Assembly: GCF_026278245.1 (NCBI RefSeq)
Contig: NZ_CP111079.1
Span: forward strand, 4,168,501-4,232,500
DNA length: 64,000 bases
Direction of reading: 5' to 3'
Source of the DNA: Pontibacter kalidii
Lineage (GTDB): Bacteria > Bacteroidota > Bacteroidia > Cytophagales > Hymenobacteraceae
In this document: piece after piece, positions 1 to 64,000 of the stretch
Position numbering within the stretch: the first letter of the stretch is position 1
Layout: the number at the start of each line of letters is the position of its first letter
Program-made: the position numbers and the translations under genes
The notes under the pieces: model-generated
Databases searched by the model: none
Told to the model about the DNA's origin: nothing
The model's input: only the letters and a program-made list of their open reading frames with translations

Positions 1-548
1 CGCGGATCGGAGAACTGGCTGGCGTTGGCCTGGTGCATGGTGGTGGTCAGGCCGAGATCGGAGAGGCAGCCCAATGCCTTCAGCACGTCGGGGCTCAGGT
101 AAGTATCGAGCCGGTGCAGCGACTTCTGCAGGAACGTGCCGGCGGTGCCCTGGTAGAGCCGCGCGCTTTTCCGCAACGCCTCCCGCACCGCCTGCCCTGG
201 CACCCCCAGCTGCTGCTCGGCCTCCCCGGCAAACTTTCCGGCGTCGGCCCAGGCCTTTACGTGGCTGCCGTCGGGCCAGAAGTAGTGCGTGATCGGGTCG
301 AGGCGGGTGTAGCGGAAGTAGTCGGAGGGGGTACGGCCAGCCAGCGTGAACAGCTCATCCACCAGGTGCGGCAGCGTGAACAGCGAGGGGCCGGCATCGA
401 ATCTATACTTGCCCAGCCAGAACTCCTGCATCTTGCCGCCAAAAGTAGGGTTGGCCTCCAGCACCGTGACCTCATAGCCTTTCACGGCCAGGCGCACGGC
501 TGTGGCAATGCCTCCTATACCCGCCCCGATGATGGCTGCCTTCCTCAT
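1..548 (-). CDS. Carotenoid desaturase, CrtI/CrtD family (partial, C-terminus beyond window)
   Basis: The N-terminal 182 residues of an FAD-dependent carotenoid desaturase are visible; the gene starts at ATG 548 and runs off the left edge. The dinucleotide-binding motif GAGIGG sits at residues 8-13, the acidic residue expected to bind the FAD ribose is E31, GGKM is at 37-40 and DAGPSLFTLP at 51-60, all characteristic of phytoene-desaturase-type oxidoreductases. These enzymes insert double bonds into C40 carotenoids at the membrane. The YFWPDG stretch resembles Bacteroidota CrtD (1-hydroxycarotenoid 3,4-desaturase) more than CrtI, but the substrate cannot be decided from this part. An SRPBCC gene lies about 60 bp upstream on the same strand and may be co-transcribed. 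Family certain, subfamily inferred. Confidence 0.85.
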   Translation of the reverse strand, partial: MRKAAIIGAGIGGIATAVRLAVKGYEVTVLEANPTFGGKMQEFWLGKYRFDAGPSLFTLPHLVDELFTLAGRTPSDYFRYTRLDPITHYFWPDGSHVKAWADAGKFAGEAEQQLGVPGQAVREALRKSARLYQGTAGTFLQKSLHRLDTYLSPDVLKALGCLSDLGLTTTMHQANASQFSDP

Positions 549-608
549 ACTTTCCTATACGGCATTATACTTTTTGTGCAGTAAACTGATGGGGTGGGGG
601 AAAGGTTT

Positions 609-1049
609 TTATACTTTCCCGAACTCCCGCTGGTAAACCGGCTTCCGCATGCCGAACTGCACCTTCATGAGCGGGTAGAGCAGCAAATCCAGCGGTTTAA
701 AGCCGGTGCTGTACGTGATGATATCATGAATCACGGCGCCGCTGCCATTTTTGGAAACCAGGTGCTTGTGATGCCATACTTTTAGCGGCGGCGGCAGTTC
801 CTGGCCCTGGTCTACAAAGTACGCCTCGGTGCCGGTTATACTTCTCTCGGTGATCAGGCTGGTCCAGCGGAAGGATTTGATGCCGGTCTGCAGCTCTACC
901 GCCACCACATCGCCGGGCCCGGAGCCATCGAAGCGCAGCAGCTTTAGCCTGGGGTAGGGCGGGGAGAGCTTCCCGAACAGCTGCTCATCAAAGGCGTTGA
1001 ATACGCTGAGGTAGTCCTGGCTGACGTATGTGCTGAGGTGGAGCTGCAT
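609..1049 (-). CDS. SRPBCC-superfamily ligand-binding protein (146 aa)
   Basis: A 146-residue protein with the length and pattern of a single START/SRPBCC (polyketide cyclase-like) domain: an N-terminal strand, a mid-region with alternating hydrophobic strands (VVAVELQTG, FRWTSLI, AYFVDQG) and a long C-terminal helix region ending near VYQREFGKV. It has no signal peptide, so it is probably cytoplasmic. It sits directly upstream of the carotenoid desaturase on the same strand, with a gap of about 60 bp, so a role in handling carotenoids or other hydrophobic substrates is plausible, but this is inference from position. No catalytic residues can be assigned. Starts at ATG 1049. Confidence 0.7.
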   Translation of the reverse strand: MQLHLSTYVSQDYLSVFNAFDEQLFGKLSPPYPRLKLLRFDGSGPGDVVAVELQTGIKSFRWTSLITERSITGTEAYFVDQGQELPPPLKVWHHKHLVSKNGSGAVIHDIITYSTGFKPLDLLLYPLMKVQFGMRKPVYQREFGKV

Positions 1050-1191
1050 TTTGTAATTGATGAATTGTGTGATTGCTGGTTTTGCAGTGCCGGGTCAAAC
1101 CACCCCTACTCCTCCTTAACCAAGGAGGGGAGTTCTTACTTACTCCTTTCAACCACCTCCGGGCCTTAAAGTTATACTCCCATAAAAAAAG

Positions 1192-1225
1192 AAACGCCGC
1201 TGCATGTATACTTGCGGCGGCGTTT
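1192..1225 (-). terminator. Rho-independent terminator of the SNF2 helicase gene
   Basis: The stem AAACGCCGC (1192-1200) pairs with GCGGCGTTT (1217-1225). A run of A precedes it on the plus strand (1184-1190) and T follows it, so it could act in both directions. It lies 50 bp past the stop of the helicase gene, which reads leftward. The loop contains a TATACTT heptamer. Confidence 0.75.
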
Positions 1226-1276
1226 TTATACTTTCTACTGAAAAACAATTATCAATCAACAACCAACAATCAAGCC

Positions 1277-4201
1277 TTAACTCAGCAGGTTGTCAATATC
1301 CTCTTTGGTGAGGCTCTTGATCACGGTTTCGTCAGTGCTGATGAGGTCGGTAACGAGCCGTATCTTGCGGTTTTGCAGCGCCAGTATCTTTTCCTCCACC
1401 GTGTCCTTGGTGATGAACTTATAGGTGAACACCGTGTTCTGCTGCCCGATGCGGTGCGCGCGGTCTATGGCCTGCGCCTCTACGGCCGGGTTCCACCAGG
1501 GGTCAAGTATAAACACATAGTCGGCAGCAGTCAGGTTCAGGCCCACGCCACCGGCCTTCAGCGAGATCAGGAACACCTGTATACTTTCGTCTTTCTGGAA
1601 ACGCTCTACCTGCTCGTGGCGGTTCTTGGTGTTGCCGTCCAGGTAGGTATACGTTATCTCCCGCTTATCCAAGGACCTCTTAATGATCTCGAGGTGCTTC
1701 ACGAACTGACTGAATATCAAAACTTTATGCCCCTTACTTACCACATCCATGGTTTTATGGACCACTTCCTTCAGCTTGCCTGAGCTTCCTTCGTAGCCCG
1801 GATCGGTCATCAGGGGGTGGTTGGCGATCTGGCGCAGTTTGGTGAGGCCCTGCAAGAGCATGAACTGGGTGTTCCCCGGGCCGTTCTCCTCCAGGTTCGT
1901 CAGGATCTTGTTGCGGTAAAAGGACTTCGTTTCCTCATAGGCGTGCTCCTGCTCCTCCGTCATCTTGCAGAAGGTGGTACTCTCTATCTTTTCGGGCAGC
2001 TCCCGGGCCACCTGCGACTTGTGCCTGCGAAGTATAAACGGCTTGATGAGCGCGTGCAAACGGCGCGTTTTCTGCTCGTCCTTCTCCTTCTCGATCGGTT
2101 TGAGGAATTCGTTTCGGAAGAAGTGCTGTGAGCCCAGCAGGCCCGGGTTAATGAACGACATCTGCGCCCACAGATCCATGGTGCTGTTCTCCACTGGCGT
2201 GCCCGTAAGTATGAGCCGGTGCCGCGACTTCAGTTCCCTGACCGAGCGCGAGGTGTTGGAGTCGGGGTTTTTGATCGCCTGCGACTCATCCAGTATGATA
2301 TAATCGAAGTAGTAAGTTTTAAGCAGCTCCGCATCCAGACGCACAATGCCGTAGGAGGTCAGGACCACATCGTACTCCGAGAACAGCTCCACATTCTTCT
2401 CGCGGTAAGTGCCGGTGTAATTAAGTATGCGCAGGTTCGGCGTGAACTTCTGCGCCTCGTTCATCCAGTTGTAAACCAGCGAGGTGGGCATCACTAGCAG
2501 CGTGGCGCTTTCTGCCCCGTTTTCTTTGCGGTGCTGCAGCATGGCCAGCGTCTGCACGGTTTTACCCAGGCCCATGTCATCGGCCAGGCAGCCGCCGAAC
2601 TTATAGTTCTGCACAAAGTGCAGCCAGTTATAGCCTGCCTTCTGGTAAGGGCGCAGTTCTCCCCTAAAGCCGGCCGGCATGGGCTGGTCTTCTATGGTTT
2701 CGAACTCGCGCAGTTTTTCCAGCCTGCGGCTCATGGTTACTGTGGCCAGGTTGCCGTTCTGCAGGTCGTTCACCAGCGCCATGTGGTGCCTGCGCAGCGT
2801 CAGGTGCTCCTCCCCCTCGGCAAAGGCAAACAGCTCTATATATTGCGTAAACCACTCCTCCGGAATAATAGCCACCTGCCCGTTAGGAAGCATAAACTCG
2901 TTATTCTTGGTAAGGATGTTGTTCCTGAGCCTGATAAACGGAATCTCGAACTCGCCGAAGCGCACGGTGCCGTAGATATCAAACCAATCGTTTTTCTCCG
3001 TGATGCCTACATCCAGCGTAATGTCGCCGATAAAGTAGTTCTTCCCGTTTCGCTGGCTCTGCTGCACGGTAAAGCCTATTTCCTCCAGCCCCTGCAGGTT
3101 ACTGTTAAGCCACGAGAAAGCTGCGCTCTTCTCCAACACCGCATGGCCATCCTTTACCTCCAGGGAGCGCTTGCTCAATTCCTTCAAAAACTTCTTCTCG
3201 GTGCTCACGTCCCGTATCAGCTTGTGGAAAACATAGGAATCCGGGGTTTTCTCCATGCTCACGCTGACGCGCTTGGCCTCCCGTGTCTCCACCATGTAAT
3301 CGCCATACTTGAACGAAAGATCGAAGAGAATCCTGCTCTTTTCCTGATCAACGGTTTCCTCTCTGCCGGCCATCACGACGGGCGCCTCGGTGGCAGCTAT
3401 CTCCGAAAAAGTAAGATACGGGCTCGGCACATACTTCTCGTCCCGGATGTCGAAGCCTTTGGCATGTACGTCAAACTGCTCCACCAGCGGCGCCACAAAC
3501 TTGCTGTAGTAGTTCTCTTCTACCGAGCGGGGCACCACAATGAACTTCTTGTTCAGGAAGGGCTGCAGCTTTTTGCCGTCCACGTTCTTCTCAAAGCTGT
3601 ATACTTTGTCGTTCAGCAACAGCCAGGCGGGGGTGTGGCAGATCAGGGCCGCGTTCTTATACTGGAACTCGAGCTTCTGCCCGGCATACTTCACCGTCGG
3701 GAAATAGTGGGTGTTATCGTCGTTGCGCCTGAAATGAAACAGCACCGTGGCCCGCTCCCGGGCAATATGGATCTGGCGCCAGGCTGGGTCTCCGTCCTTG
3801 CCCATGATAAAGGTCATCTTGCCGTTGCGCAGCAGCTCCAGTATCTTACCCATCTGGGTCTGCATGTGCTTGCTGATAGCCTCCTGCAGCGCCTTGTCGC
3901 CTCTTTCGGAGTCGTATACTTTCAGGAAGAAATCGGCTGCGGAGAGCTTCTTCTTGGGAGAGAACTTTCTCAGCACAGCGTCCTGCTGTATCTGGTCCAT
4001 CAGGGCGATAAGCTTAAAATCATCGGCGTCAAGGCGCGCCTTAAACTCATCGGCATTTTTCGCCGAGATGTTCTGGTGTTGCAGGGTAAGTTGCCCTTTG
4101 GTGTTTACCTGTACCACATATGACTCAAACAGGTAACCCAGGTATTCGTGCTCGAAGAGCGAATAGACTACCTGAAAAGGCTGCGTGGTATAAACATTCA
4201 T
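1277..4201 (-). CDS. SNF2-family DEAD/DEAH helicase (974 aa)
   Basis: A large cytoplasmic SWI2/SNF2-type ATPase. The N-terminal half (about residues 1-510) is a bacterial SNF2-associated region without recognisable motifs. The two RecA-like lobes follow: Walker A DDMGLGKT near residues 540-548, the DEAH-equivalent LDESQAIKNP near 635-645, the C-terminal helicase lobe with SQFVKHLE near 830, GGVGLNLT, and motif VI with AIDRAHRIGQ near 910. These proteins use ATP to translocate on duplex DNA and remodel protein-DNA or polymerase complexes (RapA-like). Targets in Bacteroidota are not established. It is a single gene, not embedded in a recognisable defence operon (no DUF1998, phospholipase D or methylase neighbours). 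Starts at ATG 4201; the whole catalytic core is intact. Confidence 0.93.
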   Translation of the reverse strand: MNVYTTQPFQVVYSLFEHEYLGYLFESYVVQVNTKGQLTLQHQNISAKNADEFKARLDADDFKLIALMDQIQQDAVLRKFSPKKKLSAADFFLKVYDSERGDKALQEAISKHMQTQMGKILELLRNGKMTFIMGKDGDPAWRQIHIARERATVLFHFRRNDDNTHYFPTVKYAGQKLEFQYKNAALICHTPAWLLLNDKVYSFEKNVDGKKLQPFLNKKFIVVPRSVEENYYSKFVAPLVEQFDVHAKGFDIRDEKYVPSPYLTFSEIAATEAPVVMAGREETVDQEKSRILFDLSFKYGDYMVETREAKRVSVSMEKTPDSYVFHKLIRDVSTEKKFLKELSKRSLEVKDGHAVLEKSAAFSWLNSNLQGLEEIGFTVQQSQRNGKNYFIGDITLDVGITEKNDWFDIYGTVRFGEFEIPFIRLRNNILTKNNEFMLPNGQVAIIPEEWFTQYIELFAFAEGEEHLTLRRHHMALVNDLQNGNLATVTMSRRLEKLREFETIEDQPMPAGFRGELRPYQKAGYNWLHFVQNYKFGGCLADDMGLGKTVQTLAMLQHRKENGAESATLLVMPTSLVYNWMNEAQKFTPNLRILNYTGTYREKNVELFSEYDVVLTSYGIVRLDAELLKTYYFDYIILDESQAIKNPDSNTSRSVRELKSRHRLILTGTPVENSTMDLWAQMSFINPGLLGSQHFFRNEFLKPIEKEKDEQKTRRLHALIKPFILRRHKSQVARELPEKIESTTFCKMTEEQEHAYEETKSFYRNKILTNLEENGPGNTQFMLLQGLTKLRQIANHPLMTDPGYEGSSGKLKEVVHKTMDVVSKGHKVLIFSQFVKHLEIIKRSLDKREITYTYLDGNTKNRHEQVERFQKDESIQVFLISLKAGGVGLNLTAADYVFILDPWWNPAVEAQAIDRAHRIGQQNTVFTYKFITKDTVEEKILALQNRKIRLVTDLISTDETVIKSLTKEDIDNLLS

Positions 4202-4370
4202 GCCAAAGACATTTTAGGACTTCAAATTTACTTAAAAAGCCGCTCATTTCCTATCTAAAACATGCCCTTTGACTTGCACTTTTGTAAGACTAGCTAACTT
4301 TTTATGCTGAAACAGACACGCGCCTCAGATGTTTCTAAAGTCGAGAAATTGTACTGTGGCAGGGAAGAAC

Positions 4371-5594
4371 CTAGATGTTCTCGGTAACAGACATGGCCGC
4401 GGCCTTATTGGCCGGCCGGATAGATACCAGCAGCGTGATGACGATGATCGCCAGACCTGTAAAAACAAAGTCCGCCACCTCCATCTTTACCGGGTACGCC
4501 TCCACCACCGAGGTGGCCATACCCATGCTGACCAGGCCGAATGTTTGCTGCAGGTTGCCGATCAGCATGCCGATGGAAAGGCCGTAGGCAGCCCCGATGA
4601 AAGCCACCAACGCTCCCTCCAGCAGAAAGATGTTGCGGATGGTCTTGGCTGTGGCGCCCATGGAGGCAAGTATGGCAATGTCCTTCTTCTTATCGATAAC
4701 GAGCATGGAGAGGGAAAAGAAGATGTTAAGGGAGGCGATGCCAAGTATAAACGCGAAGGTGATGAACACGAACAGCTTCTCCACCTTCACGGCGCGCAGC
4801 AGGCTGGTGTGCTGCTCATCAGAGTTCTGCACTTTAAAGCCCTCGCCCAGTATTTGCTGCAGTTCGCGCTTCACCTGGTCTATACGGGCACTTTCGTCCA
4901 CCTTTATCTCCAGGGCAGTACGGCGGCGGCCATACTCCAGCAACTCCTCGGCAAAGTTGAGAGGCACAAATACGTAGGCATCGTCGTACTGGCGTTCTAT
5001 GGCAAAAATGCCGCCCGGCAGAATGTTGAGGCTGTTAAAGGAGCCCTCGGGGTTAAGCGGGTTGAACTTTACGTTGCGCGGGTAGAGGAACTGCATCGGC
5101 ACAAACTGGTTGCCTGGCCGGATAGAGAGCTGGTACTGCACACCACGCCCCACCAGGGCCCGGTAGGTCTTGTTAAAGTACAGGTCGCTGGAGCCTTCCA
5201 CTACCGAGGCACCGATCTCGTTCTGCTCAAAGAAGTTTTCGCTCACGCCCTTCACCTTCACCACCATCTGGCGCTCGTTGTAACGGAGCAGGGCATTATC
5301 CTCTATCACCTCCGATACCACGGCCACGCCCGGCGTGTTGCGGATGCGGTTCATGAACTCGGTATCCGTCTCAAAGGACTTGCCCTCTGCGGCCGTAATC
5401 TTCAGATCCGGGTCGAAGCTGGAGTAGATCTCACGGATCAGGTCTTCCAGGCCGTTGAACACCGACAGCACGATGATGAGCGCCGCCGAGCCCACGGCCA
5501 CCCCGATCATGGCAATATTGGAGATAATGCTGATGATGTTCCTCTTCTTCCTAGAGAAAAAATATCGCTTCGCTATGAGAAAAGGTACGTTCAT
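4371..5594 (-). CDS. LolC/LolE-type ABC transporter permease (407 aa)
   Basis: An inner-membrane permease of the FtsX/LolCE family, which with a LolD ATPase releases lipoproteins from the inner membrane for transport to the outer membrane. Topology is the classic one: a membrane segment at about residues 20-50, a large periplasmic MacB-like domain (about 50-270) and three C-terminal segments (about 272-300, 325-350, 375-395). Length matches LolC/E (about 400 aa). It follows the methyltransferase and rbfA on the same strand, an arrangement I recall from other Bacteroidota. Which of LolC or LolE it represents cannot be decided; many Bacteroidota use a single homodimeric LolF-like protein. No ATPase gene is adjacent. 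Confidence 0.85.
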   Translation of the reverse strand: MNVPFLIAKRYFFSRKKRNIISIISNIAMIGVAVGSAALIIVLSVFNGLEDLIREIYSSFDPDLKITAAEGKSFETDTEFMNRIRNTPGVAVVSEVIEDNALLRYNERQMVVKVKGVSENFFEQNEIGASVVEGSSDLYFNKTYRALVGRGVQYQLSIRPGNQFVPMQFLYPRNVKFNPLNPEGSFNSLNILPGGIFAIERQYDDAYVFVPLNFAEELLEYGRRRTALEIKVDESARIDQVKRELQQILGEGFKVQNSDEQHTSLLRAVKVEKLFVFITFAFILGIASLNIFFSLSMLVIDKKKDIAILASMGATAKTIRNIFLLEGALVAFIGAAYGLSIGMLIGNLQQTFGLVSMGMATSVVEAYPVKMEVADFVFTGLAIIVITLLVSIRPANKAAAMSVTENI

Positions 5595-5596
5595 CT

Positions 5597-5690
5597 TAAT
5601 TGTTTATTGTTGCTTGCTGATTGTTAAAAGGTAATATCGTTAAGCATTCTGGAGAACAAACAATTAACAATTTAACAAACAGCAATTAAA
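5597..5690. repeat. AT-rich imperfect inverted repeat in an operon spacer (TTGCTGATTGTTAA type)
   Basis: The spacer between the methyltransferase and permease genes contains copies of an ATTGTT/GCTGATTGTTAA word facing AACAATT/AACAGCAATTAA words. Closely similar spacers occur at 1243-1275, 20611-20735 and 57542-57612, so this is a dispersed intergenic family and not a local accident. Confidence 0.55.
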
Positions 5691-6500: not shown

Positions 6501-6522
6501 AAGGGTGGTGTGCGGCCTGGGC

Positions 6523-8565: not shown

Positions 8566-8593
8566 AGCTTGATCTTATCTTAACCTGTTCGGT

Positions 8594-11366: not shown

Positions 11367-14300
11367 CTATTCTTTCATCACTTTTATCTGGCTTACCTGG
11401 CCGTTCAGCTCCACACGCAGCACATACATGCCTTTCGACAGTTTATCGTATACCGGCAGCTGCACTTCGTTCGGGCCGTCCTGCACCTCTACCACTTTAG
11501 TGTATACTTTTTTACCGGTCATGTTGTGCAGTACCAGTGTGGCCTTGCCGCTTACTTCAGCTGTAAAGTACAGCTTAGAGTTGTAGTTGATCGGGTTCGG
11601 AGCCACCAGCAGTTGCTGCATCACTTCGCGGGCCTTCACGTTTACGGCTACTACTTTGCTGTAGTCTGTGGTACCATCTAGGTCAACCTGCTTCAGGCGG
11701 AAGTAGATTGTTCCTGTCTCGTTGCCCAGTTTGTGTGCGTACTGGTAGTCTAGCCTTACCGAGCTGTTAGAGCCCTTGCTGTCCACACGGCCTACCTTCT
11801 CAAAGCCCTTCTTCGGCTCTCTCGACATCTCTACCTCGAAGTGTGAGTTGTTCTGCTCAGAGGCAGTTGCCCACGTCAGCAGCACGTTGTTATTCTGCAG
11901 CGCCGCGTTGAAGGCCATGAGTTCTACTGGGAGGGGAAGAATTTCCGATTCCAGTGTAACCACACGAGTTGTTGCGTCAAGAGATGAGTGAGAGATGGTC
12001 CCTGTCTGCTCAGGATTAGCATCCTCACCTGGCTCGTTTTTCACATGAATGGTAGTTTCTGCAATATTACCAAAATCATCAGCTGTAAGGTTTGGCAGCG
12101 TTCTGCTCCAGTTGCTTCCGTCCATCGACATCAGGAAGTTGTCCGTTGTTGTTAATGTAAACTTCAGGGTCTCTCCAACAGCCAGGCTTCGAGCACTAAC
12201 CGTATAAGTCTGCTGCGAGGACTGTCCAGCTTCTACTTTAAAGCTCAGAAGTGCAGGCGTTGCTGTAATAGTCGGAACGGCAATTTGTAACTCTAGCGGC
12301 TCACTCGTATCATCGCCCCCGGCTGCCGTTATCGAAACTGCGCTTGTTCTGGCTCCGCTTGGCACTACCACTTCTAACCTTGTATCATCTCCAGGCTCGT
12401 AGAAGTTTGTAGCGTACACACTTCCGATCTTAACAGTTCCGATTCCCTCGAGGTTATAGCCTCTCAGCAGGATTCGCTCATTGATTCGAGCTGGGCTTGT
12501 GCTGCTGATAACGCTTTGTTCTTCATTATTGTGTTCAAATCTTACAAGAACAGGGCTGGTAACTTCGAACTCACTTGTTGAAGTTGCGTTGCCGGCTCTG
12601 TTTACTACAGTAATGTTACCCGAGATAGCATTATCAGGAATTTTCACCTCTACCCAGTTCCCACCTACTTGATCGTAGGCTGTCACAGCTGCTCTCAAGT
12701 CTATCACGCCTACTGAAGGAATATCAAAGCCGTCGTGTCTGTTGAAGTATACTTCTATGGCACCGTCTGGCACGCTGCCTGTACCGAATAGGTCCCAAAG
12801 GTTTGTACCGGTAATCTTTATCGTTTCACCGGACGCCCCTGAAGTAGGTGTAAATTCTGTAATTGTCGGCGCGTATACTACACGTAAGATATCTGTGCTT
12901 GTTACTGTTGTTCCTCCATTGTAAGGTGTTGTTACAGCAATCTTACCAGTTATAGCTCCTGCAGGAACAGTCAAGGTGATCTGTGTACCTGCTGCATTGA
13001 TTGTATAACCTGTTGTCAAAGCTACCTCGTCGCCGGCTGCATCGGTTCCCAAGAAAGTTACCTCAGTTGCTTCATCAAAGTTGGTACCAGTGATTGTGAA
13101 TGTAGAACCCACTAATCCTGAGTTAGCAGAGAAGCTTGTAATAGTTGGCGCTCCAATGATGGTTATATTCTGGCTCCATTCACCCGTACCACTTTCGCTT
13201 GCTACTCTGATTCTTCCTGTCGTGGCCGTGCTTGGAACAGTTACTACAACCTCATCTATACCCTCCTCTGTTGTACTATAGACAGAAGCAGTTGATTGTA
13301 TTGTAGCATTTACTCTTGCGCCAGCTGCTCCCGCAAAGCTTACTGTCGGTGCGGACCGTTGAACATCCCTAGTAATGGTATTATAATATTCATCAAATCT
13401 AGTACCTGAGATTTTAAGCGTACTTACCCCAGCATATACTCTAGTCCTAGACACACTAGTGATAATCGGCTTATGTACAGTTAATAGTGTTGATGTACCT
13501 GTACCACTTTTAGAAGTAATACTTAGTGTATTACTTGAATTTGCAGTCATTACCGGAGCACTGAACACTAGTTCCGTTTCAGAACTAACAAAATAATTGC
13601 TTTTAGGAATTTGGATACCCCCGTAACTTACCGACTGTACATCTATGAAGTTGCTGCCTGTTACAGTTACAGATTGACCAGCGTATACTGCTGTTGGATT
13701 TACGGCTGAAATGATTGGAGCCATTACCTCAAAGTACATAGGCTCACTCTCACCACTTCCAGATATTACCGTCACATTTCCTGTGCGCGCGCTAGTCGGC
13801 ACCAGGACCTCAATAGATTCGTTGGTATAGGTCGTTGCTGTAACCCGAGCTCCATTAAATACTACCTCAGGAGCTTTGTGCTCCACAGCGCCTGTCGCTT
13901 CGTTGTAGTAAGCGCTGAAGTTCTGGCCTGTAATAGTTAAAAGCGTTCTGTCGGCATAACCTTTGGCTGTGCCATCCTCCGCGCTAAGATTTTCTATAAT
14001 TGGCTCAATTACAGTATAGTTATCAGCGCTTGTACCAGTACCTGCCAGTGTAGTAACAGCAACAGGGCCTGTACCCGCATCAAATGGAGCTTTTACAGTA
14101 ATTGTGCCTGCTTCTTCATCCTTGCTTACTACCTCTGCCTCTTCGCCATTGAAGGTTACTTTGGTTATGTTCTTAAAGTAATCACCAGTAATAACCACTT
14201 GCTGGTTAGCATAGCTAGTAGTTGGAGTGAAGGCAATATTTGCTGGCACTGGAACTGTAAACACGTTCTCCCCGCTATTAGCTGTACCACCATCTGCTGT

Positions 14301-36265: not shown

Positions 36266-36512
36266 GGGGGCAGCCATATTTAAACTTCAGCTATACTTAT
36301 AGTTCCTTAGCCGTTGCCCTTCCATTGCTGTTCCGTACAACCGTGTCCGGAACCTTAAAGAGGGGCCCTACCCCCATCTGCTGCGGATCTCCACGTCCGT
36401 GTAAGCCATATTTTATACTTCGGCCATATCTTATACTTTCTCTGGCGCAAGCGTCCGCTTGTGCCTTCTCTCGCTGGCGCGGGCTTGCAGCCCGTGTCTT
36501 TATATTCGTTGG

Positions 36513-36567
36513 GTTTGCAACCTGGCTGGCTCGCAGAGCCGTGCTTTATACTTGGGCTATACTTTCT
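36513..36567. repeat. Third copy of the GTTTGCAAC...GGCTATACTT module
   Basis: Begins GTTTGCAACC, contains TCGCAGAGCC and ends GGCTATACTTTC, as in 27947-28000. It is preceded by GCTTGTGCC/CGCTGGCGCG words shared with 27870-27915. Confidence 0.6.
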
Positions 36568-36612
36568 ACTCTGTTTATACTTTCTACTCTATTTATACTT
36601 GCTGCTATACTT
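36547..36612. repeat. Cluster of five TATACTT heptamers in 66 bp
   Basis: TATACTT starts at 36547, 36558, 36576, 36594 and 36606. The middle three are spaced by 18 bp, including a direct repeat of TTTATACTTTCTACTC. Confidence 0.8.
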
Positions 36613-36825
36613 GCCAATTACAGCGACAACACCGTCCCTCTTTTGTCATCCTGAAAGGATCTTGTGGGCAAGCTGCTATAAGCGTTTCCTTTCAGGTTGC
36701 CTTCTGAACAACAGTTCCTATTTATACTTGCATAGCCGCTGCTTCCTTCAGCTTGATACAAGCTATACTTGCTAACTGCCGTTCATCCACAGCCTTACAA
36801 CCTGCATTGTTTCATTTCCGATTGT

Positions 36826-45192: not shown

Positions 45193-45469
45193 GCAAAGTA
45201 TAAAACCCAAGTTGCGATCTACTCATGATGTGCAGGTGTAAACCCACCCCTAACCCCTCCGAGGAGGGGAATCACCTACTCTTTTGCAAAATTCCCCTCC
45301 TCTGGACTAGCCAAAACGCGAGTTTTGAGCTAGCGAGCGCAGCTCTCAGTGGTGGGTTAATCGCAACCTTGAGGTATAAAGTATAAGCAAGCCCAAAGAC
45401 CGACCCAAACCTTGCGGCGCGTTGTTTGTTTACACAAGTATAAATTACCTTATCACAAAGTATAACCCT
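45193..45469. other. 277-bp intergenic region with CCCCTCC units
   Basis: Contains CCCCTCCGAGGAGGGG-type words (about 45250-45290) in the opposite orientation to the copy at 28335, a TAGCTAGCGAGC-like symmetrical stretch, and TATA/AAGTATA words near 45370 and 45437. The last 50 bp is the msrB leader. Confidence 0.55.
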
Positions 45470-46357: not shown

Positions 46358-46738
46358 TTGCGCGCCTATCTCAAAAAACGCTACAACAGCTTCCGGTTCG
46401 CCTTCAGGGGGATTAACGCTGCCGTAAGATCGGAGCCACACATGCGCCTGCACGTGCTGTCGGCCTTCGCGGTGCTGGCCCTGGGCTTTGCCTTTGGTGT
46501 GTCTAAAACGGAATGGTGCCTGCTGGTGGGAAGTATAGGGCTGGTGGTAACGGCGGAGATCATCAACACCGCCATTGAGACGGTGGTGAACCTCGTGTCG
46601 CCGGATTTTAACCAGTTGGCAGGCCGGGCAAAGGATCTGGCCGCTGGTGCCGTGCTGGTGGCAGCCTTCACAGCAGCCCTTATCGGCACCATCATCTTCC
46701 TGCCCTACCTGCTGGCTTTTGCCAAAGTATACTTTTAG
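46358..46738 (+). CDS. Diacylglycerol kinase family protein (DgkA-type, 126 aa)
   Basis: A small three-helix membrane kinase. The DgkA motif EIINTAIETVVNLVSPDFNQLAGRAKDLAAGAVL (residues about 67-101) includes the conserved Asn-Ala-Glu and Lys-Asp. The family phosphorylates undecaprenol or diacylglycerol. The only start in the frame is TTG at 46358 because an in-frame stop is at 46343; the TTG lies within the repeated TATACTTG-like word. Stop at 46738. Confidence 0.88.
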   Translation: MRAYLKKRYNSFRFAFRGINAAVRSEPHMRLHVLSAFAVLALGFAFGVSKTEWCLLVGSIGLVVTAEIINTAIETVVNLVSPDFNQLAGRAKDLAAGAVLVAAFTAALIGTIIFLPYLLAFAKVYF

Positions 46739-54706: not shown

Positions 54707-54728
54707 CTATGTATACAGTTTGTTCTTT

Positions 54729-57091: not shown

Positions 57092-57187
57092 GGGCTAGCA
57101 AGTATGGTTTAAGGTATTCTGATGATTTTGCCGTAACTTTATACTTGGACTAATTACAAAGTCATCCTAATCAAGAACAACCTAACA

Positions 57188-57541: not shown

Positions 57542-57612
57542 ATTATTGCTGATTGTTAATTGCTGATTGTTTTCAAGTATAGCAATCAACAGTTAACTAC
57601 TAACAATCAACC
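57542..57612. repeat. AT-rich inverted repeat spacer (TTGCTGATTGTTAA type)
   Basis: Contains TTGCTGATTGTTAATTGCTG and, reversed, AGCAATCAACAGTTAAC, with an AAGTATA between. Same family as at 5597-5690 and 20611-20735, again between co-directional genes. Confidence 0.6.
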
Positions 57613-57613
57613 T

Positions 57614-57976: not shown

Positions 57977-57977
57977 C

Positions 57978-58141
57978 ACGTATTTCGTATCATGTAGTAC
58001 GACAGCCGGCAAAGTATAAAATCAAAGTATAAGCCCATGAAGAAGTATAAAATCCTGAAACTTATACTTGTCTCATCGCTGTTACTGCTTACCAGCGATA
58101 CCGCTAAGAAAAAAAATCGTGCTACCTGATACGAAGTACGT
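57978..58141. repeat. 164-bp element bounded by 25-bp inverted repeats
   Basis: The left arm (57978-58002) reads ACGTATTTCGTATCATGTAG followed by TACGA; the right arm (58117-58141) is its complement with three mismatches. A related word is at 38738-38765. The interior contains a 30-codon ORF. It looks like a small non-autonomous palindromic element. Confidence 0.7.
58037..58129 (+). CDS. Putative 30-aa peptide inside the inverted-repeat element
   Basis: ATG 58037 opens a 30-codon frame with a lysine-rich start and a hydrophobic core (KKYKILKLILVSSLLLLTSD) then a polar KKKNR tail; it resembles a signal peptide or a tiny membrane peptide. The stop is in the right arm of the 25-bp inverted repeat. 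It may be only a chance ORF. No known family. Confidence 0.2.
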   Translation: MKKYKILKLILVSSLLLLTSDTAKKKNRAT

Positions 58142-58161
58142 GTGTCGCAAAAATTTCACCC

Positions 58162-58923: not shown

Positions 58924-59063
58924 GGGAGGCATACTAAAATGCGCCGGCAAACAGTTATATGATAGGTATTCCTACTTTTTTATCGCCTGTTGCATAATGC
59001 TTTAGATACTTATGCTTAACTTACAACTATAGCCGCCATGCCTTAACATTATAATAGCGAGAC

Positions 59064-62000
59064 ATGAAACATACCGATGCACTCGATCAGTTGCTGCATC
59101 AATTGCAGGAGTTCAAGCAGAAATTCTACCTCAACATGCTGTTGCGGGGCGGGATTTTCGCGGTTGGGCTCCTGCTTTCCGTTTACATCGTGTACAGCCT
59201 GCTGGAGTACATGTTCTACTTCCCGGAGTATGTGCGGGCGTTCCTGCTCTTCTCGTTTGTGGCGGCGGTTATCTATGTGTTTGTGCGCTGGATAGCCTTG
59301 CCAGCAGCTGCGCTAATAAAGCTGCGGCGGGTGCTCTCCGACGAGCAGGCGGCGCAGCAGGTAGGCGCCTACTTCCCCGAGGTCCGCGACAAGCTGCTTA
59401 ACGCCATCCAGCTGCAGCAGCAGGACCGCAGCAACGAGCTGATCCGGGCAAGTATCGCCCAGCGCAGCCAGCAGTTGCTTTCCTTCAAGTTTAAGGAAGC
59501 CGTTTCGTACCGTGAGAACAAGCCGCTGCTGAAGTACATCGCTCTACCCGCCCTGGTAGCTTTCCTGATCATGCTGGTGTACCCGGCTATCTTCGTGCAG
59601 GGTACCGAACGCATCATCAACTACAAAACGCATTACACGCCGCAGGCGCCTTTCAATTTTGTGGTGCAGAACGAGGGGCTGCAGACATTCCGCGGCGAGG
59701 ATTTTATACTTCACGTGGGAGTGGAGGGCAAGACCGTGCCCAGCGAAGTATACATTAACTACAACGGGCGCCGCCAAAGGTTAAGCCAAAATGCCAACGG
59801 CAGCTATAGTTATACGTTCAAGCAGCTGCAGCGCCCTGTGGATTTTCAGCTGGAGGGCTCCGGTTTCTTCTCCAACAATTACACGTTAAACCTGCTCTCT
59901 CGCCCGAACCTGAAGGACTTCCGGATGCTGGTGCAATACCCAAAATACCTCAACCGGAAAGCCGAGGAGATACAGAACACCGGCAATGCCACCGTGCCCG
60001 AGGGCAGCACCATCACCTGGAACTTCTCCACCTCCGAGACCGATAGCGTAAAGCTCTCTTTTGAGGAGCCGGCCCAAAGTATAAATGCCCAAAAAGACGG
60101 CGGCACGTTTGCTGCCAGCAAGGCCTTTAGCCAGAGCCAGAACTACAGCATCAACCTGCGCAACGCGCACACGACAAACAAAGAGCAGATCAACTACCAG
60201 ATCACCACCATTCCGGACCGCAACCCGCAGATCAGCCTGGAGCAGTACCAGGATACGGCGCTGTACTCCTTTATGGTGTTGGGGGGTGATGTGTCGGATG
60301 ACTACGGGCTGACGCGGCTGGCCCTGACCTACCGCATCAGCAACGGCAAAAACCCTCAGGCAACATACAAAAGCCAGGCCCTGCCGCTAAACAAGCAGCA
60401 GCTCAGCCAGACCTATTACTACCAGTGGAACACGGCCGCCCTTAACCTGCAGCCCGGCGATAAGCTGGAGTACTTTGTGCAGGTATGGGACAACGATGGC
60501 ATCCGCGGCCCCAAAAGCACCCGCACCCGCACCTTCGAGCTCAAGATTCCGGACAAGCGCCAGTTGCAGCAGGAGCTGGACAGCAACTCACAGTCGGTGG
60601 CCAGCCAGATGAGCAAGACGCTGGAGCGGGCAAATCAGCTGGAGCAAGAGCTATCTAAGTCGGAGGAGAAGATGAAGACCAAGCGCGACCTGAACTGGCA
60701 GGACCGCAAGCAGCTGGAGGACCTGGCAGCGAAAAAGCGGCAGCTGGAGCAGGACATCCGTTCCATGAAGGAGCTCTTTGAGGAACTCAACAAGAAGCAG
60801 AACATGCTCAACGAGCCAAGCAGGCAGCTGGCCGAGAAGGCGCAGGAACTGCAGAAACTCATGAACGACCTGCTGGACCCCGAGACAAAGAAGCTGTACG
60901 AAGAGCTGGAGAAGCTACTGCAGCAACAGCAGCCCAACGACCAGGACCTGCAGCAGCTTCTGAGCAAACTCGATAACCGGGAGAAGAACCTGGAGCGTGA
61001 ACTGGAGCGGGCCCTGGAGCTGTTCAAGCAGCTGCAGTTTGAGCAAAAACTCGACAACATCGCCAACAAGCTGGAAGAGATGGGGGAGAAGGAGCAGCAG
61101 TTGGCCCAGAAAACCGAGCAGAAGCAAGAGAGCAACCAAGCCTTACAGGAGCAGCAGAAAGAGCTGCAGCAGGATTTTGAGAATGTGAAAGAGCAGATGG
61201 AGGAACTCAAGGACCTGAACAAGCAACTGGACAACCCGAACCAACTAAACGAGCAGCAACAGCAGCAGGACCAGCAAAGCATAGAGCAGCAGATGGAGCA
61301 AAGCCAGGAGCAGCTTCAGAAGAACGAAAACAAAAAGGCCAGCGAGTCGCAGCAGAAGGCGGGGCAGCAAATGAAGCAGATGGCCCAGCAGATGGAGGAG
61401 ATGAAGAGCAGCATGAGCATGGCCGGCATGCAGCAGAACCTCGACAACCTCCGCGACATCCTCGAGAACCTGATCACGCTCTCCTTCGACCAGGAGGACT
61501 TGATGAAGCAGTTCCGCAGCGTGAACCAGAGCGATCCACGCATGGTGGAGCTGTCGCAGCGGCAGCTAAACATCCGCGACAATGCCCAGGTGATAGAGGA
61601 TAGCCTGTTTGCGCTAGCCAAAAAAGTATTCCAGATCGAGTCGTTCGTGACACGGGAGGTAGCCGCCATGAACCAGAGCATGGACAACAGCGTGCAGGAG
61701 CTCCGCGACCGTAACCTGGGCAAAGCCACCGGACAGCAGCAATTGGCTATGACGAGCATGAACAACTTGGCCCTGATGCTCAACGACGCCCTGAAGCAGA
61801 TGCAGCAGGCGATGCAGCAAATGCAGGGCGGCATGGCCGGAAAACAGAAGAGCAATAAGCCGATGCCCGGCAACATGGGTGAATTGCAGCAACAATTGAA
61901 CAAAAAAATCGAAGATCTGAAAAAAGGAGGCAAATCAGGCAAGGCACTTTCTGAAGAATTAGCTAAATTGGCTGCGGAGCAGGAGGCTCTCCGAAATGCC

Positions 62001-62375
62001 TTGAAAGAACTGGAGAAACAGGGGGCAAAACCGGGTGAAAAGGGCCAAAATGGCAAGCTGGGAAATATTAGCAAGATGATGGAACAAAGCGAAACTGATC
62101 TCGTTAATAAACGTTTGACTGAGCAAACCATTCAGCGGCAGCGCGAAATCCTGACTCGTTTGCTGGAGGCAGAGAAGTCTGCGAGAGAACGGGAATTGGA
62201 CAATAAACGCGAAGCAAAGACAGCTCAGGAAGTCGCGCGCAATGTTCCTCCTTCATTCGAGAGATATATAAAGGCAAAAGAGAAGCATACAGAATTGCTC
62301 AAGACCATACCTCCTGCGCTTTCACCGTATTATAAGCAGAAGGTAAACGAGTACTTCAAAAACATAAGCAAATAA
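59064..62375 (+). CDS. DUF4175-family giant membrane/coiled-coil protein (1,103 aa)
   Basis: A large Bacteroidota inner-membrane protein with unknown function. Two N-terminal membrane segments (about 27-47 and 55-80), a third at about 158-180, then a beta-rich periplasmic domain (about 190-500), then a long Gln- and Glu-rich coiled coil (about 515-900, with segments such as QQKELQQDFENVKEQMEELK) and a Met/Gln-rich tail. This fits DUF4175 in domain order and length. It starts the run DUF4175-RsbW-like-ybeY-mnmG. Possible roles (cell envelope, division) are speculation. Confidence 0.82.
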   Translation: MKHTDALDQLLHQLQEFKQKFYLNMLLRGGIFAVGLLLSVYIVYSLLEYMFYFPEYVRAFLLFSFVAAVIYVFVRWIALPAAALIKLRRVLSDEQAAQQVGAYFPEVRDKLLNAIQLQQQDRSNELIRASIAQRSQQLLSFKFKEAVSYRENKPLLKYIALPALVAFLIMLVYPAIFVQGTERIINYKTHYTPQAPFNFVVQNEGLQTFRGEDFILHVGVEGKTVPSEVYINYNGRRQRLSQNANGSYSYTFKQLQRPVDFQLEGSGFFSNNYTLNLLSRPNLKDFRMLVQYPKYLNRKAEEIQNTGNATVPEGSTITWNFSTSETDSVKLSFEEPAQSINAQKDGGTFAASKAFSQSQNYSINLRNAHTTNKEQINYQITTIPDRNPQISLEQYQDTALYSFMVLGGDVSDDYGLTRLALTYRISNGKNPQATYKSQALPLNKQQLSQTYYYQWNTAALNLQPGDKLEYFVQVWDNDGIRGPKSTRTRTFELKIPDKRQLQQELDSNSQSVASQMSKTLERANQLEQELSKSEEKMKTKRDLNWQDRKQLEDLAAKKRQLEQDIRSMKELFEELNKKQNMLNEPSRQLAEKAQELQKLMNDLLDPETKKLYEELEKLLQQQQPNDQDLQQLLSKLDNREKNLERELERALELFKQLQFEQKLDNIANKLEEMGEKEQQLAQKTEQKQESNQALQEQQKELQQDFENVKEQMEELKDLNKQLDNPNQLNEQQQQQDQQSIEQQMEQSQEQLQKNENKKASESQQKAGQQMKQMAQQMEEMKSSMSMAGMQQNLDNLRDILENLITLSFDQEDLMKQFRSVNQSDPRMVELSQRQLNIRDNAQVIEDSLFALAKKVFQIESFVTREVAAMNQSMDNSVQELRDRNLGKATGQQQLAMTSMNNLALMLNDALKQMQQAMQQMQGGMAGKQKSNKPMPGNMGELQQQLNKKIEDLKKGGKSGKALSEELAKLAAEQEALRNALKELEKQGAKPGEKGQNGKLGNISKMMEQSETDLVNKRLTEQTIQRQREILTRLLEAEKSARERELDNKREAKTAQEVARNVPPSFERYIKAKEKHTELLKTIPPALSPYYKQKVNEYFKNISK

Positions 62376-62405
62376 CCAGCACCTATTTTACACTTAACGA
62401 TTAAT

Positions 62406-62831
62406 ATGAATCAGGTTAAAATTCAGATTCCTTCCCTAATCGAAAACATCAGAGTAATAGAAAGCTTTATCGATAACTCTAAAGATGAGTTTGAGTTTGA
62501 AGATGACATCTATGGCAACATCATGGTTGCTGTAACGGAATCTGTAAACAACGCTATTCGCCACGGCAATAAGTTTGATAAAGACAAGAATGTATACTTG
62601 ACGTTACAGGTAGAGGAGAACAAACTACTTTTTGAGGTGGCCGATGAAGGCCCGGGCTTTGATTACGAGCACCTGCCGGACCCCACCGCCCCTGAGAACC
62701 TGGAGAACCCCGGTGGCCGCGGCATCTTCCTGATGCGTAACCTGTGCGACGAGGTTAACTTTCTGGACGAAGGAAAAAAAGTACAACTAATCTTTAATAT
62801 CCCTATTCCCGAGAATGGATCATCCAATTGA
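62406..62831 (+). CDS. RsbW-like serine/threonine kinase or anti-sigma ATPase (141 aa)
   Basis: A GHKL-type ATP-binding protein. The N-box AVTESVNNAIRHGNK (E45, N49), the G1 box ADEGPGFD (around D80) and the G2 box GGRGIFLM (103-110) identify the RsbW/SpoIIAB family, which phosphorylate anti-anti-sigma factors or bind sigma factors. Its partner is not in the window. The stop overlaps the start of ybeY by 17 bp. Confidence 0.9.
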   Translation: MNQVKIQIPSLIENIRVIESFIDNSKDEFEFEDDIYGNIMVAVTESVNNAIRHGNKFDKDKNVYLTLQVEENKLLFEVADEGPGFDYEHLPDPTAPENLENPGGRGIFLMRNLCDEVNFLDEGKKVQLIFNIPIPENGSSN

Positions 62832-63243
62832 GTTTTTTAGCGAGGATGTAGAGTTTGAGCTAAACAACCCAGAGCAGGTAGCAGAGTGGATTGCCGACAT
62901 CATTGAACGCCACGAACGAGAGCTCACCAACCTCACCTACATCTTCTGCTCTGATGAGTACCTCCACGAGATCAACGTAGCCTATCTCGACCACGATACG
63001 CTAACAGACATCATCACCTTCAATAATGCCGACGAGGAAGGCACTATTGAAGGTGATGTTTTTATTAGCATAGACCGTGTGCACGACAATGCTCAGGACC
63101 ACGGCACTGCTTTTGAAGACGAACTGCACCGTGTGATCATACACGGGGTGCTGCACCTACTTGGTTTTAAAGATAAGACTGAAGAGCAAGAGGTACTTAT
63201 GCGCAAAGAAGAAGATTCTTCGTTATCTTTGCGGAAATTTTAA
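62815..63243 (+). CDS. ybeY: Endoribonuclease YbeY (rRNA maturation factor)
   Basis: The single-strand-specific metal-dependent RNase that helps 16S rRNA 3'-end maturation and ribosome quality control. The metal site is H110-x3-H114-x5-D120 (HGVLHLLGFKD): the third ligand is Asp where most bacteria have His; I recall this in other Bacteroidota. 142 aa. ATG 62815 overlaps the preceding ORF by 17 bp, so co-translation is likely. Confidence 0.95.
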   Translation: MDHPIEFFSEDVEFELNNPEQVAEWIADIIERHERELTNLTYIFCSDEYLHEINVAYLDHDTLTDIITFNNADEEGTIEGDVFISIDRVHDNAQDHGTAFEDELHRVIIHGVLHLLGFKDKTEEQEVLMRKEEDSSLSLRKF

Positions 63244-63271
63244 GCTCAAACGGAATTACCAACCCCCTGCT

Positions 63272-63291
63272 GATGTTTCACGTGAAACATC
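63272..63291. promoter_or_regulatory. parS: ParB-binding site, exact 16-bp consensus in a 20-bp palindrome
   Basis: TGTTTCACGTGAAACA (63274-63289) is an exact match to the conserved bacterial parS consensus, embedded in a perfect 20-bp palindrome (63272-63291). It lies between ybeY and mnmG. In many bacteria parS clusters near oriC, so it suggests this is an origin-proximal region. Confidence 0.9.
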
Positions 63292-63307
63292 TCTTAAACC
63301 AGAATAC

Positions 63308-64000
63308 ATGTTTCCAGAATACGATATTATAGTTGTTGGCGCTGGGCACGCAGGCTGTGAAGCCGCGGCGGCTGCAGCGAAGATGGGTTCGAAGGTGCTG
63401 CTGGCAACCATGAACATGAACACGATCGCGCAGATGTCGTGCAACCCGGCTATGGGTGGCGTGGCCAAAGGGCAGATCGTGCGGGAAGTGGATGCGCTCG
63501 GCGGCATGAGCGGCATCATCACCGACCAGACCATGATCCAGTTCCGCATGCTCAACAAGTCGAAAGGACCGGCCATGTGGAGCCCACGTGCACAAAGCGA
63601 CCGTATGCGTTTCGCTGAGGCTTGGCGCCTAAGCCTGGAACAGACAGAGAACGTAGACTTCTGGCAGGAGATGGTGACAGGGATCGAAGTAGAGGATGGA
63701 CGGGCGGTAGGCGTGCGTACTAGTCTGGGGATAACCATACGCGGAAAGGCCGTTGTCTTAACGAACGGCACGTTTTTAAATGGCATTATCCACATTGGCG
63801 AAAAGCAAATGGGGGGAGGCCGCTCAGCAGAAAAAGCAGCAAAGGGTATCACGGAGCAGCTGAAAGAATTAGGCTTTGAGGCTGGCCGCATGAAGACCGG
63901 AACACCGCCACGGGTAGATGGGCGCTCGCTCGACTACAGCAAAATGGAGGAGCAGTTCGGAGACGAAAACCCAAGCAAGTTCTCTTACACCGATACGCAG
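63308..64000 (+). CDS. mnmG: tRNA uridine-5-carboxymethylaminomethyl synthesis enzyme MnmG (partial)
   Basis: MnmG (GidA) with MnmE modifies U34 of several tRNAs. The first 231 residues are visible; the gene runs off the right edge. FAD motif VVGAGHAGCEAA at residues 9-20, then MSCNPAMGGVAKGQIVREVDALGG, which is nearly invariant in MnmG, and TGTPPRVDGRS. ATG 63308 is the natural start, 17 bp past the parS site. The mnmE and rsmG/par genes may follow outside the window. Confidence 0.96.
   Translation, partial: MFPEYDIIVVGAGHAGCEAAAAAAKMGSKVLLATMNMNTIAQMSCNPAMGGVAKGQIVREVDALGGMSGIITDQTMIQFRMLNKSKGPAMWSPRAQSDRMRFAEAWRLSLEQTENVDFWQEMVTGIEVEDGRAVGVRTSLGITIRGKAVVLTNGTFLNGIIHIGEKQMGGGRSAEKAAKGITEQLKELGFEAGRMKTGTPPRVDGRSLDYSKMEEQFGDENPSKFSYTDTQ

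Follow-up and report, generated by a model that had tools for sequence, protein, structure and literature searches.

To our knowledge, DNA words by which genomes label themselves are known only from the Neisseriaceae and Pasteurellaceae, where they serve DNA uptake, and from cyanobacteria with their HIP1 word, whose use is unclear; all uptake-sequence systems that we know of employ type IV pili. The DUS words of the Neisseriaceae form dialects that differ by a few bases around a fixed CTG core and follow phylogeny; S. muelleri carries two dialects, differing by a transversion, in nearly equal numbers, and related genomes without any DUS exist (Frye et al. 2013, PMC3630211). A graded drive has been described for uptake sequences (Bakkali 2007, PMC1939737), and HIP1 is an octamer in genome-wide excess that has alternate words, has been lost in some lineages and is tied to methyltransferases (Elhai 2015, PMC4390886). 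In the Bacteroidota, transformation of Riemerella anatipestifer needs ComEC, DprA, ComF, RecA, an HHH protein and a DUF1343 protein as well as two surface proteins without known homologues, and its proposed DNA receptor contains the domain DUF5689 (PF18942); the main text of that report does not use the term 'uptake sequence' (PMC8459023).

The word AAGTATA (TATACTT on the other strand) of Pontibacter resembles the DUS in its thousands of copies, in dialects that follow phylogeny around a fixed core (TATA instead of CTG) and in the existence of word-less relatives, and the two-dialect genomes G026, G032 and G046 recall S. muelleri. Unlike the DUS it is AT-rich, unrelated in sequence and found in another phylum, in a genus whose genomes gave no convincing match to a type IV pilus ATPase, and this 7-mer recurs once per ~330-570 bp (in G030 and G000, the genome studied here), compared to at most 5,918 10-mers in 2.4 Mb in the Neisseriaceae (PMC3630211). 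With the USS of the Pasteurellaceae it has in common that it is short and asymmetric and that its mismatch neighbours are over-represented in a graded way (PMC1939737), whereas it differs in sequence, in phylum and apparently in machinery. Like HIP1 it is over-represented genome-wide, with alternate words and secondary losses; unlike the palindromic, methyltransferase-tied HIP1 it is asymmetric, with no common methyltransferase within the PF01555 family (PMC4390886).

Abundance of the word in the window and the genome

Within the window, the entire 64-kb stretch of Pontibacter kalidii DNA analysed here, AAGTATA/TATACTT occurs 113 times where an order-1 Markov model expects 4.8 copies, with the highest z among all 7-mers. 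This bears out the over-representation that a sequence-only reading had proposed for the whole window, and the approximately 18 words it had counted by eye in the first 10 kb agree with the exact count of 18. Of the copies 57 lie entirely inside predicted genes, 55 entirely outside, and one spans a border. The sites and their most conspicuous groupings are:

Starts 404, 566, 610, 837, 1207, 1227, 1580, 3600, 3915, 7071, 7092, 7556, 8057, 11503, 12748 and on to 62593: TATACTT, 76 sites
Starts 1505, 2030, 4743, 8986, 9715, 12745 and on to 60077: AAGTATA, 37 sites
36292..36770, minus strand: densest cluster, ten TATACTT in one direction with core spacing of 11-12 and 18 bp, no ORF of at least 120 aa there
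Starts 36292, 36414, 36432, 36547, 36558, 36576, 36594, 36606, 36723, 36764, minus strand: the TATACTT copies of the densest cluster
12745..12754, either strand: overlapping palindromic pair AAGTATACTT, the word being readable on both strands
46725..46734, either strand: overlapping palindromic pair AAGTATACTT
45436..45464, plus strand: two AAGTATA closely upstream of an ATG, on inspection of the sequence
58012..58049, plus strand: three AAGTATA (58012, 58025, 58043) around an ATG, on inspection of the sequence

The strong excess extends to the genome, whose 5.05 Mb hold 8,861 copies (4,451 and 4,410 on the two strands) compared to 356 (170 and 186) of a reversed-word control. In an 832.5-kb sample made up of 39 chromosomal stretches and the window, AAGTATA ranks first among all 7-mers, with 1,518 copies versus 107 under an order-2 model; stretches below 10 kb were excluded from the word analysis, and a stretch of a second contig (L075) was kept out of the chromosomal statistics and its density treated separately. 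The 605 genes predicted by a simple ORF scoring made for this analysis contain 720 copies, versus 91.4 +/- 8.3 after synonymous-codon shuffling (40 shuffles, maximum 107), while the reversed word occurs 34 times in them versus 48.0 after shuffling. Markov models and codon shuffling together show that the frequency of AAGTATA goes beyond what dinucleotide, trinucleotide or codon bias explains. Like DUS and USS, the word is short, non-palindromic and surrounded by a graded excess of near-matches: at 0, 1, 2 and 3 mismatches the observed/expected ratios are 25.1, 2.0, 1.08 and 0.98, compared to 1.03, 1.04, 1.06 and 1.02 for the reversed word and 1.34, 1.13, 1.07 and 1.04 for a second control word. 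The sampled copies have a fuller form of about aAAGTAT(A/g)Aa.

Placement in genes, strands and foreign-looking DNA

The word had been said to occur between genes and inside them in all frames. Both statements stand, all six codon phases being occupied, with the correction that non-coding DNA is denser (4.18 versus 1.11 words per kb in the sample, border-spanning hits counted in neither class). The density is highest, at 8.29 per kb, between converging genes, and 75 sense-strand copies lie within 20 bp after the stop codons of the 605 predicted genes, some of them overlapping the stop codon in K-V-stop and E-V-stop readings. No sharp distance from AAGTATA to the starts of these genes was seen, and a promoter or terminator word was rejected on this ground, though the sense-strand peak after stop codons is present. 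The same peaks, together with dispersed intergenic repeats of which some bear the word, would suit a spreading mini-repeat, one of the roles first suggested, or a fixed promoter or terminator element with which the word is copied. This is contradicted for most copies by the flanks, which are close to random except for one base 5' and about two bases 3' of the 7-mer, by the 720 copies in predicted genes in every phase, by the lack of a sharp start distance and by multi-base gains without clear excess (see below), and we consider it highly improbable.

The coding strand carries 403 of the 720 copies in predicted genes, and the G-rich strand 839 of the 1,518 sampled copies. Because this is only 55%, the suggested role in segregation is unlikely, and a KOPS reading was rejected for the same weak bias. 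A Chi-like recombination hotspot, in which the word would regulate a RecBCD/AddAB-type helicase-nuclease and be kept for its aid to repair, could accommodate the modest G-rich-strand excess and a short, asymmetric, genome-wide word that is scarce in foreign-looking DNA. The Chi words known to us, however, are G-rich and strongly oriented, whereas AAGTATA is AT-rich and densest between genes and shows no strong replication-linked orientation, its strand bias being slight and similar to the one seen for coding strands; such a role seems improbable to us.

The word is scarce in AT-rich, foreign-looking DNA and on a conjugative plasmid, as would be expected of a DUS or USS; the basis is small, with eight out of 165 5-kb bins and a single 20-kb stretch from the second contig. 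Bins below 48% GC hold 0.80-0.84 words per kb versus 1.9-2.05 at 52-56% GC, which runs opposite to the expectation from composition; the nine most GC-rich bins are word-poor as well (0.96 per kb). Word-poor places include a polysaccharide cluster, a ribosomal L1 gene and a contig with relaxase and TraG.

Dialects across Pontibacter

The sequence-only reading had envisaged a species-specific word. Restriction to one species does not hold, since the word is genus-wide and comes in dialects: among 50 Pontibacter genomes the strongest word is AAGTATA in 22, AGGTATA in 12, AACTATA in five and GGTATAA in one, so that 40 carry one of these four words, which have a TATA core in common, and ten carry none of them. 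Outside the genus (98 genomes), AAGTATA never exceeds 2.5 times its control. When 35 loci of 16-23 kb from named Pontibacter/Botryobacter were compared, the top 7-mer was AAGTATA in 14, AGGTATA in ten, AACTATA in two and GGTATAG in one; AGGTATA comes second in one more, AACTATA second and weak in another, and six show none. By these loci P. flavimaris has the AAG, P. roseus the AGG and P. populi the AAC dialect. As with DUS and USS, related species have related dialects that track phylogeny: in a tree of a 1,103-aa protein of the window, the AGG dialect (11/11, 100/100) and the AAC dialect (2/2, 100/100) each form one clade.

Some genomes are mixed, with AAG/AAC counts of 7,552/8,118 in G026, 9,116/6,094 in G032, 10,614/3,531 in G043 and 5,110/11,674 in G046, and in the remaining four AAC genomes AAGTATA still stands at 4.3-4.5 times its control. 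In scans of 100 kb, the word-less G023, G024 and G033 contain no alternative word prominent above ~5-fold, G042 contains TATATAA (144 versus 26.5, possibly simple TA repeats) and G025 AATAATT (63 versus 12.6); the scan covered 20 kb of G002, G007 and G041 and 40 kb of G045, and G027 was left out. The Pontibacter word would be an independent case in the Bacteroidota. Since a single genus holds several dialects together with genomes in transition and relatives that lack the word, it provides a natural experiment, in which dialect shifts can point to the reader protein through co-variation and mixed genomes show how one dialect replaces another.

Switching, gain and loss of sites

Orthologous sites have switched dialect in place. 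Among nine AAG species, at least one has AAGTATA at 21 of 100 aligned AAC sites (46 and 54 from two species, which are not independent), compared to five of 549 control C-to-G swaps (P 4e-14 if sites were independent), and at 7/19, 11/33, 11/23, 12/30 and 11/36 AGG sites in five species, compared to 78/554 and 79/465 control G-to-A swaps in two of these (P 0.010 and 0.005). Aligned positions with gaps were excluded from the species-unique-site, in-place and rate counts. Parallel gain from pre-existing near-words may raise the in-place signal.

In its home clade, each of the AAG and AGG words outpaces permuted words in gain, and it is lost at a lower rate there than where the other dialect prevails. 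In likelihood fits on trees, gain is 1.33e-3 versus 2.4e-4 for permuted words and loss 2.4 versus 3.4 in the AAG clade (seven species; the tree omitted the shorter row of the window), and 5.5e-4 versus 1.4e-4 and 1.9 versus 4.9 in the AGG clade (11 species); reciprocal loss rates are 5.4 for AAGTATA in the AGG clade and 4.3 for AGGTATA in the AAG clade. Species-unique sites amount to 16/205 words versus 516/1,692 permuted words for AAG and 9/310 versus 1,311/5,048 for AGG; a pairwise comparison with P. flavimaris (14/20 words kept versus 4/9 control words) was too small and was superseded by these counts and rates. Along with the Markov and shuffling results, the gains and losses show action on the DNA word and support the earlier view that this word, rather than the protein, is the target of selection or mutation. 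The idea that whole words are 'stamped' in by multi-base changes was rejected for lack of a clear excess, despite striking single cases: among the species-unique sites, which are too few for a decision, 0/16 (AAG) and 1/9 (AGG) differ by at least three bases, versus 2-4% in controls.

A stricter count with resolved ancestors gave no reduced loss, with 45 losses versus 45.3 expected (permuted words 179 versus 211.7), and six gains versus 4.2 expected (permuted words 126 versus 267). The equilibrium frequency fitted by maximum likelihood is below the root frequency (AAG 5.5e-4 versus 1.45e-3, AGG 2.9e-4 versus 1.14e-3) and the words would therefore be slowly declining; for permuted words it is below the root in the AGG set only.

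Machinery and candidate readers

Like the pilus-less Riemerella anatipestifer of the same phylum (PMC8459023), Pontibacter has ComEC and DprA, each matched in all 50 genomes, and HHH proteins (HHH_3 in all 37 searched, with a protein of 304-346 aa in at least 36 of these among the matches listed). They do not explain the word distribution, because word-less Pontibacter and related genera have them just as well. For the type IV pilus/secretion ATPase (PF00437) the 50 Pontibacter gave no convincing match: alignments span 40-65 of 370 positions at up to 25.9 bits, three of them just above the cut-off of 24.9, whereas six other genomes from this order score 353-431 bits. Judged on this ATPase there is no convincing type IV pilus uptake machine of the kind that serves DUS and USS, and a ComP-type pilin receptor is therefore not expected. 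A Riemerella-type receptor was rejected, since its domain DUF5689 (PMC8459023) matches in only 22 of 50 Pontibacter and not in the window's genome; the frames bearing it are about 413-450 or about 1,100-1,300 aa long, and in most of 12 neighbourhoods the adjoining genes appear SusD- or SusC-like by eye. No surface-gene candidate was seen beside ComEC in 20 genomes, its adjoining genes being common to word-rich and word-less genomes, and the candidates examined (PF00437, DUF5689, the ComEC neighbourhood and PF01555) yielded no reader protein. In the literature searched, with most subscription journals outside its scope, natural transformation was nowhere reported for Pontibacter, and among the matches listed there was no paper on such a word.

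The main rival explanation is a by-product akin to HIP1, in which an orphan DNA modification or a mismatch repair guided by modification would favour the word in the course of repair. The word would then build up without a use in uptake, and the dialects would mirror shifts in the specificity of the enzyme. HIP1 shows comparable enrichment, alternate words, lineage losses and the methyltransferase tie (PMC4390886), and dialect-dependent gain and loss would follow as well. AAGTATA, however, is not self-complementary and thus lacks the palindromic form of HIP1, and none of its single-step neighbours is prominently depleted as a source word (lowest 0.81 of order-1 expectation). A restriction or methylation word had also been suggested; for PF01555 methyltransferases, the one family concerned here, a reader role is unlikely because matches are missing from 13 of the 39 genomes in which AAG, AGG or AAC words abound (G003, G011, G014, G018, G021, G022, G030, G032, G035, G037, G039, G044 and G049). 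We hold the HIP1-like explanation to be unlikely, if the most serious of the competitors.

A possible label for DNA uptake

Among the roles listed in the sequence-only reading, uptake is the best fit, still unproven, and we regard the chances as evenly balanced that AAGTATA serves as a signal for the uptake of self-DNA in transformation without a pilus. AAGTATA (~aAAGTAT(A/g)Aa) would be one dialect of a Pontibacter-wide label of self-DNA. A cell-surface or periplasmic DNA-binding protein presumably reads the word and would favour DNA that bears it, promoting its uptake. Fragments that gain the word by mutation would be taken up and recombined more often, and copies would build up wherever the sequence tolerates them until the gain by drive balances mutational loss; drive, and not cell-level selection, would thus maintain them. 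A shift in reader specificity would cause sites to be rewritten in place and a new dialect to spread in the lineage, and loss of the reader would let the words decay.

Somewhat short of even, and tentative, is the fuller proposal of an uptake-sequence system with dialects outside the Proteobacteria, pilus-less and with an undescribed receptor, whose specificity before the TATA core would have shifted two or more times if AAG is the ancestral form, and with dialect borders that would act as gene-exchange barriers between species. An uptake signal would offer a handle on pilus-less transformation in the Bacteroidota and a practical tag for transforming such bacteria. Points that count against uptake are the word-poor GC-rich bins and the missing convincing pilus ATPase, further the stricter count without reduced loss and the fitted equilibrium below root frequency, and possibly the rarity of opposed hairpin pairs.

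Spacing and orientation of neighbouring sites

The AAGTATR sites of the sample form same-direction clusters at spacings of 7, 11 and 18 bp, which the uptake explanation does not predict. They could mean cooperative binding to a genome-wide chromosome or defence protein, such as a nucleoid protein or a self/non-self immunity label, that marks self DNA inside the cell under cell-level selection. Distribution and dialects would fit this too, but the spacing preferences of other dialects differ from those of AAG, no candidate was found, and we know of no nucleoid or self-marking protein that needs thousands of copies in coding regions; we think it quite unlikely, a shade less so than a Chi-like role. 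Opposed pairs in terminator-like hairpins are common for DUS and USS; in Pontibacter opposed pairs are rare at most distances, with a few such hairpins seen. Overlapping palindromic pairs at distance 3 number 23 among the 2,134 AAGTATR sites of the sample.

Abundance and placement of the word

The heptamer AAGTATA (reverse complement TATACTT) occurs 113 times in the window against 4.8 copies expected under an order-1 model, and the hand count of about 18 made for the first 10 kb in the sequence-only reading proves exact. The whole P. kalidii genome (5.05 Mb in two contigs, the window being one piece, C1:4168501-4232500) holds 8,861 copies, balanced between the strands, and 356 copies of the reversed word. 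In an 832.5-kb sample it is the most over-represented 7-mer of all (1,518 versus 107, order-2 model). Sampled copies yield the fuller consensus aAAGTAT(A/g)Aa, with almost no information in the flanks beyond it; directly after the 7-mer, T is nearly missing (4%). Over-representation falls from 25.1 for the exact word to 2.0, 1.08 and 0.98 with one, two and three mismatches. The 605 predicted genes carry 720 copies versus 91.4 +/- 8.3 after synonymous codon shuffling within each gene; it is thus at the DNA level that the word is favoured, as the same reading had argued in placing the force on the DNA word and not on protein.

The word is denser in non-coding than in coding DNA (4.18 versus 1.11 copies/kb) and densest between converging genes (8.29/kb; 4.83-4.86/kb in other intergenic stretches; 20-1,500 bp). 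Density per stretch round the chromosome ranges from 0.85 to 3.15/kb, and the G-rich strand holds 839 of the 1,518 sampled copies. Although the word itself is AT-rich, 5-kb bins below 48% GC (8 of 165) contain only 0.80-0.84 words/kb, those with 52-56% GC contain 1.9-2.05, and those above 56% (n=9) are again low at 0.96. Word-poor places include:

A polysaccharide cluster
A gap with a ribosomal L1 gene
The 74-kb second contig, of which 20 kb were read and gave 11 copies; it encodes a relaxase and a TraG protein

At window positions 36547-36612 and in the sample, same-direction word pairs favour distances of 7, 11 and 18 bp (38, 29 and 34 pairs versus 0, 8 and 2 in opposed orientation). In the 18-bp pairs only 0.41 of the spacer bases agree with the sequence that follows the second word, so not all pairs can be put down to simple tandem duplication. 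Opposed words lie in terminator-like hairpins at 2 of the 30 AAGTATGG places among those listed for the sample, for example GCCATACTTTGCAAAGTATGGC, which has GC-rich arms and a T run.

Dialects and their phylogeny

AAGTATA was counted in 148 genomes, 50 from Pontibacter and 98 from other genera of the order. It is abundant in many Pontibacter and reaches at most 2.5 times its control in the 98; many other Pontibacter use related words instead, as seen in named loci and genome-wide counts. For each genome the words were ranked by their ratio to the respective reversed control, and the top one was assigned if it reached at least 8-fold. By this measure 22 Pontibacter use AAGTATA (AAG), 12 AGGTATA (AGG), five AACTATA (AAC) and one GGTATAA (G036, 8.5x); ten show none of the four (G002, G007, G023, G024, G025, G027, G033, G041, G042 and G045; best ratios 1.4-4.0). 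Outside Pontibacter, the counts of the latter three words cover 39 of the 98 genomes. In G030, AACTATA reaches 13,168 copies in 4.3 Mb. TATA is common to all four words, and a T after it is avoided in the AAG, AGG and AAC dialects (4-5%). The AAG and AAC words are both abundant in G026, G032, G043 and G046; in the remaining four AAC genomes AAGTATA still stands at 4.3-4.5 times control, which is what an older dialect in decay would be expected to show. Among the word-less genomes, 120 kb of G042 (L118, L201, L220-L223) contain 144 TATATAA versus 26.5, and 120 kb of G025 (L109, L204, L224-L227) contain 63 AATAATT versus 12.6; these are either further dialects or simple AT repeats.

The dialects were placed on a tree of one gene, encoding a 1,103-aa protein of the window (37 rows). 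Its closest homologue is in P. flavimaris (94%), and 33 of its 34 closest loci are labelled Pontibacter or 'Pontibacter sp.'. AGG and AAC each form a single clade with full support. AAG is scattered (six changes) and may be ancestral, and the word-less species require at least 3-4 changes.

Replacement, gain and loss

Aligned orthologous regions show that dialects are replaced in place. Among the 100 AAC sites aligned from two species, 21 read AAGTATA in one or more of the nine AAG species, as against 5 of 549 for C-to-G swaps used as control. For AGG sites (five species) the figures run from 7/19 to 11/23, with 78/554 and 79/465 for control G-to-A swaps. In a two-state likelihood model on trees, with permuted words as control, AAG and AGG words are gained about 4-6 times as fast as permuted words and lost more slowly in their home clade, while a foreign-dialect word is lost about as fast as the permuted words or faster. 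AAG and AGG words are seldom restricted to one species. For both, the fitted equilibrium frequency lies below the root frequency, as if they were slowly declining; this may partly be model bias, because permuted words in the AGG set do the same. Counter to the model, when only sites with resolved ancestors were counted, gains were few and loss was no slower; this count is weighted less because word-less sites are resolved less often in it, but its result stands.

Candidate roles and machinery

The word behaves like an uptake sequence, and we propose a role in self-DNA uptake, to which we give an even chance. Known uptake-sequence systems work through the type IV pilus machine. Unlike their members, Pontibacter appears to be without it, judged by the search for the pilus/type II secretion ATPase PF00437: the 50 genomes gave only partial matches (at most 25.9 bits), and six genomes from other families of the order score 353-431 bits. 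ComEC and DprA match in all 50 Pontibacter, with or without the word, and HHH_3 proteins in all 37 searched, including seven of the ten word-less genomes. The DUF5689 domain, part of the receptor proposed for Riemerella, occurs patchily in the genus and was not found in P. kalidii. In G009 and G021 both the ComEC and DprA matches contain in-frame stops and words are still many; the stops may stem from errors in the assembly or from a recent loss of the ability to transform.

A by-product of modification or repair is a less likely source of the word. PF01555 methyltransferases occur in a scattered fashion in Pontibacter. Chi-like, intracellular self-marking and other roles jointly take up the remaining probability. 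The DUS of Neisseriaceae (PMC3630211) is the closest behavioural match, sharing thousands of copies, a fixed core with varying neighbours, dialects along the phylogeny, relatives without the word and two dialects within one genome. HIP1 (PMC4390886) is a second analogue.

Other words and repeats

Dispersed repeats of intergenic type, unrelated to the word, in the 832.5 kb include AGGCGCTCAACCCAAGGACT (20 copies), the palindrome GGACAGGTCGCGACCTGTCC (16 counted over both strands, hence 8 places) and CGCAAGCGTCCGCTTGTGCC (13 copies, one in the window at 36440-36470). The palindromes CATATG, GGATCC and ATGCAT are strongly depleted (114, 140 and 118 versus 477, 468 and 424; both strands, L056-L095 and window), as restriction avoidance would give. 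In 20-kb stretches from other genera of the family, AAATATT is over-represented in L127 (G064; 64, 14.2 expected) and L128 (G068; 38, 13.6 expected), and ACCTAGG in L130 (G052; 27 versus 1.9 expected).
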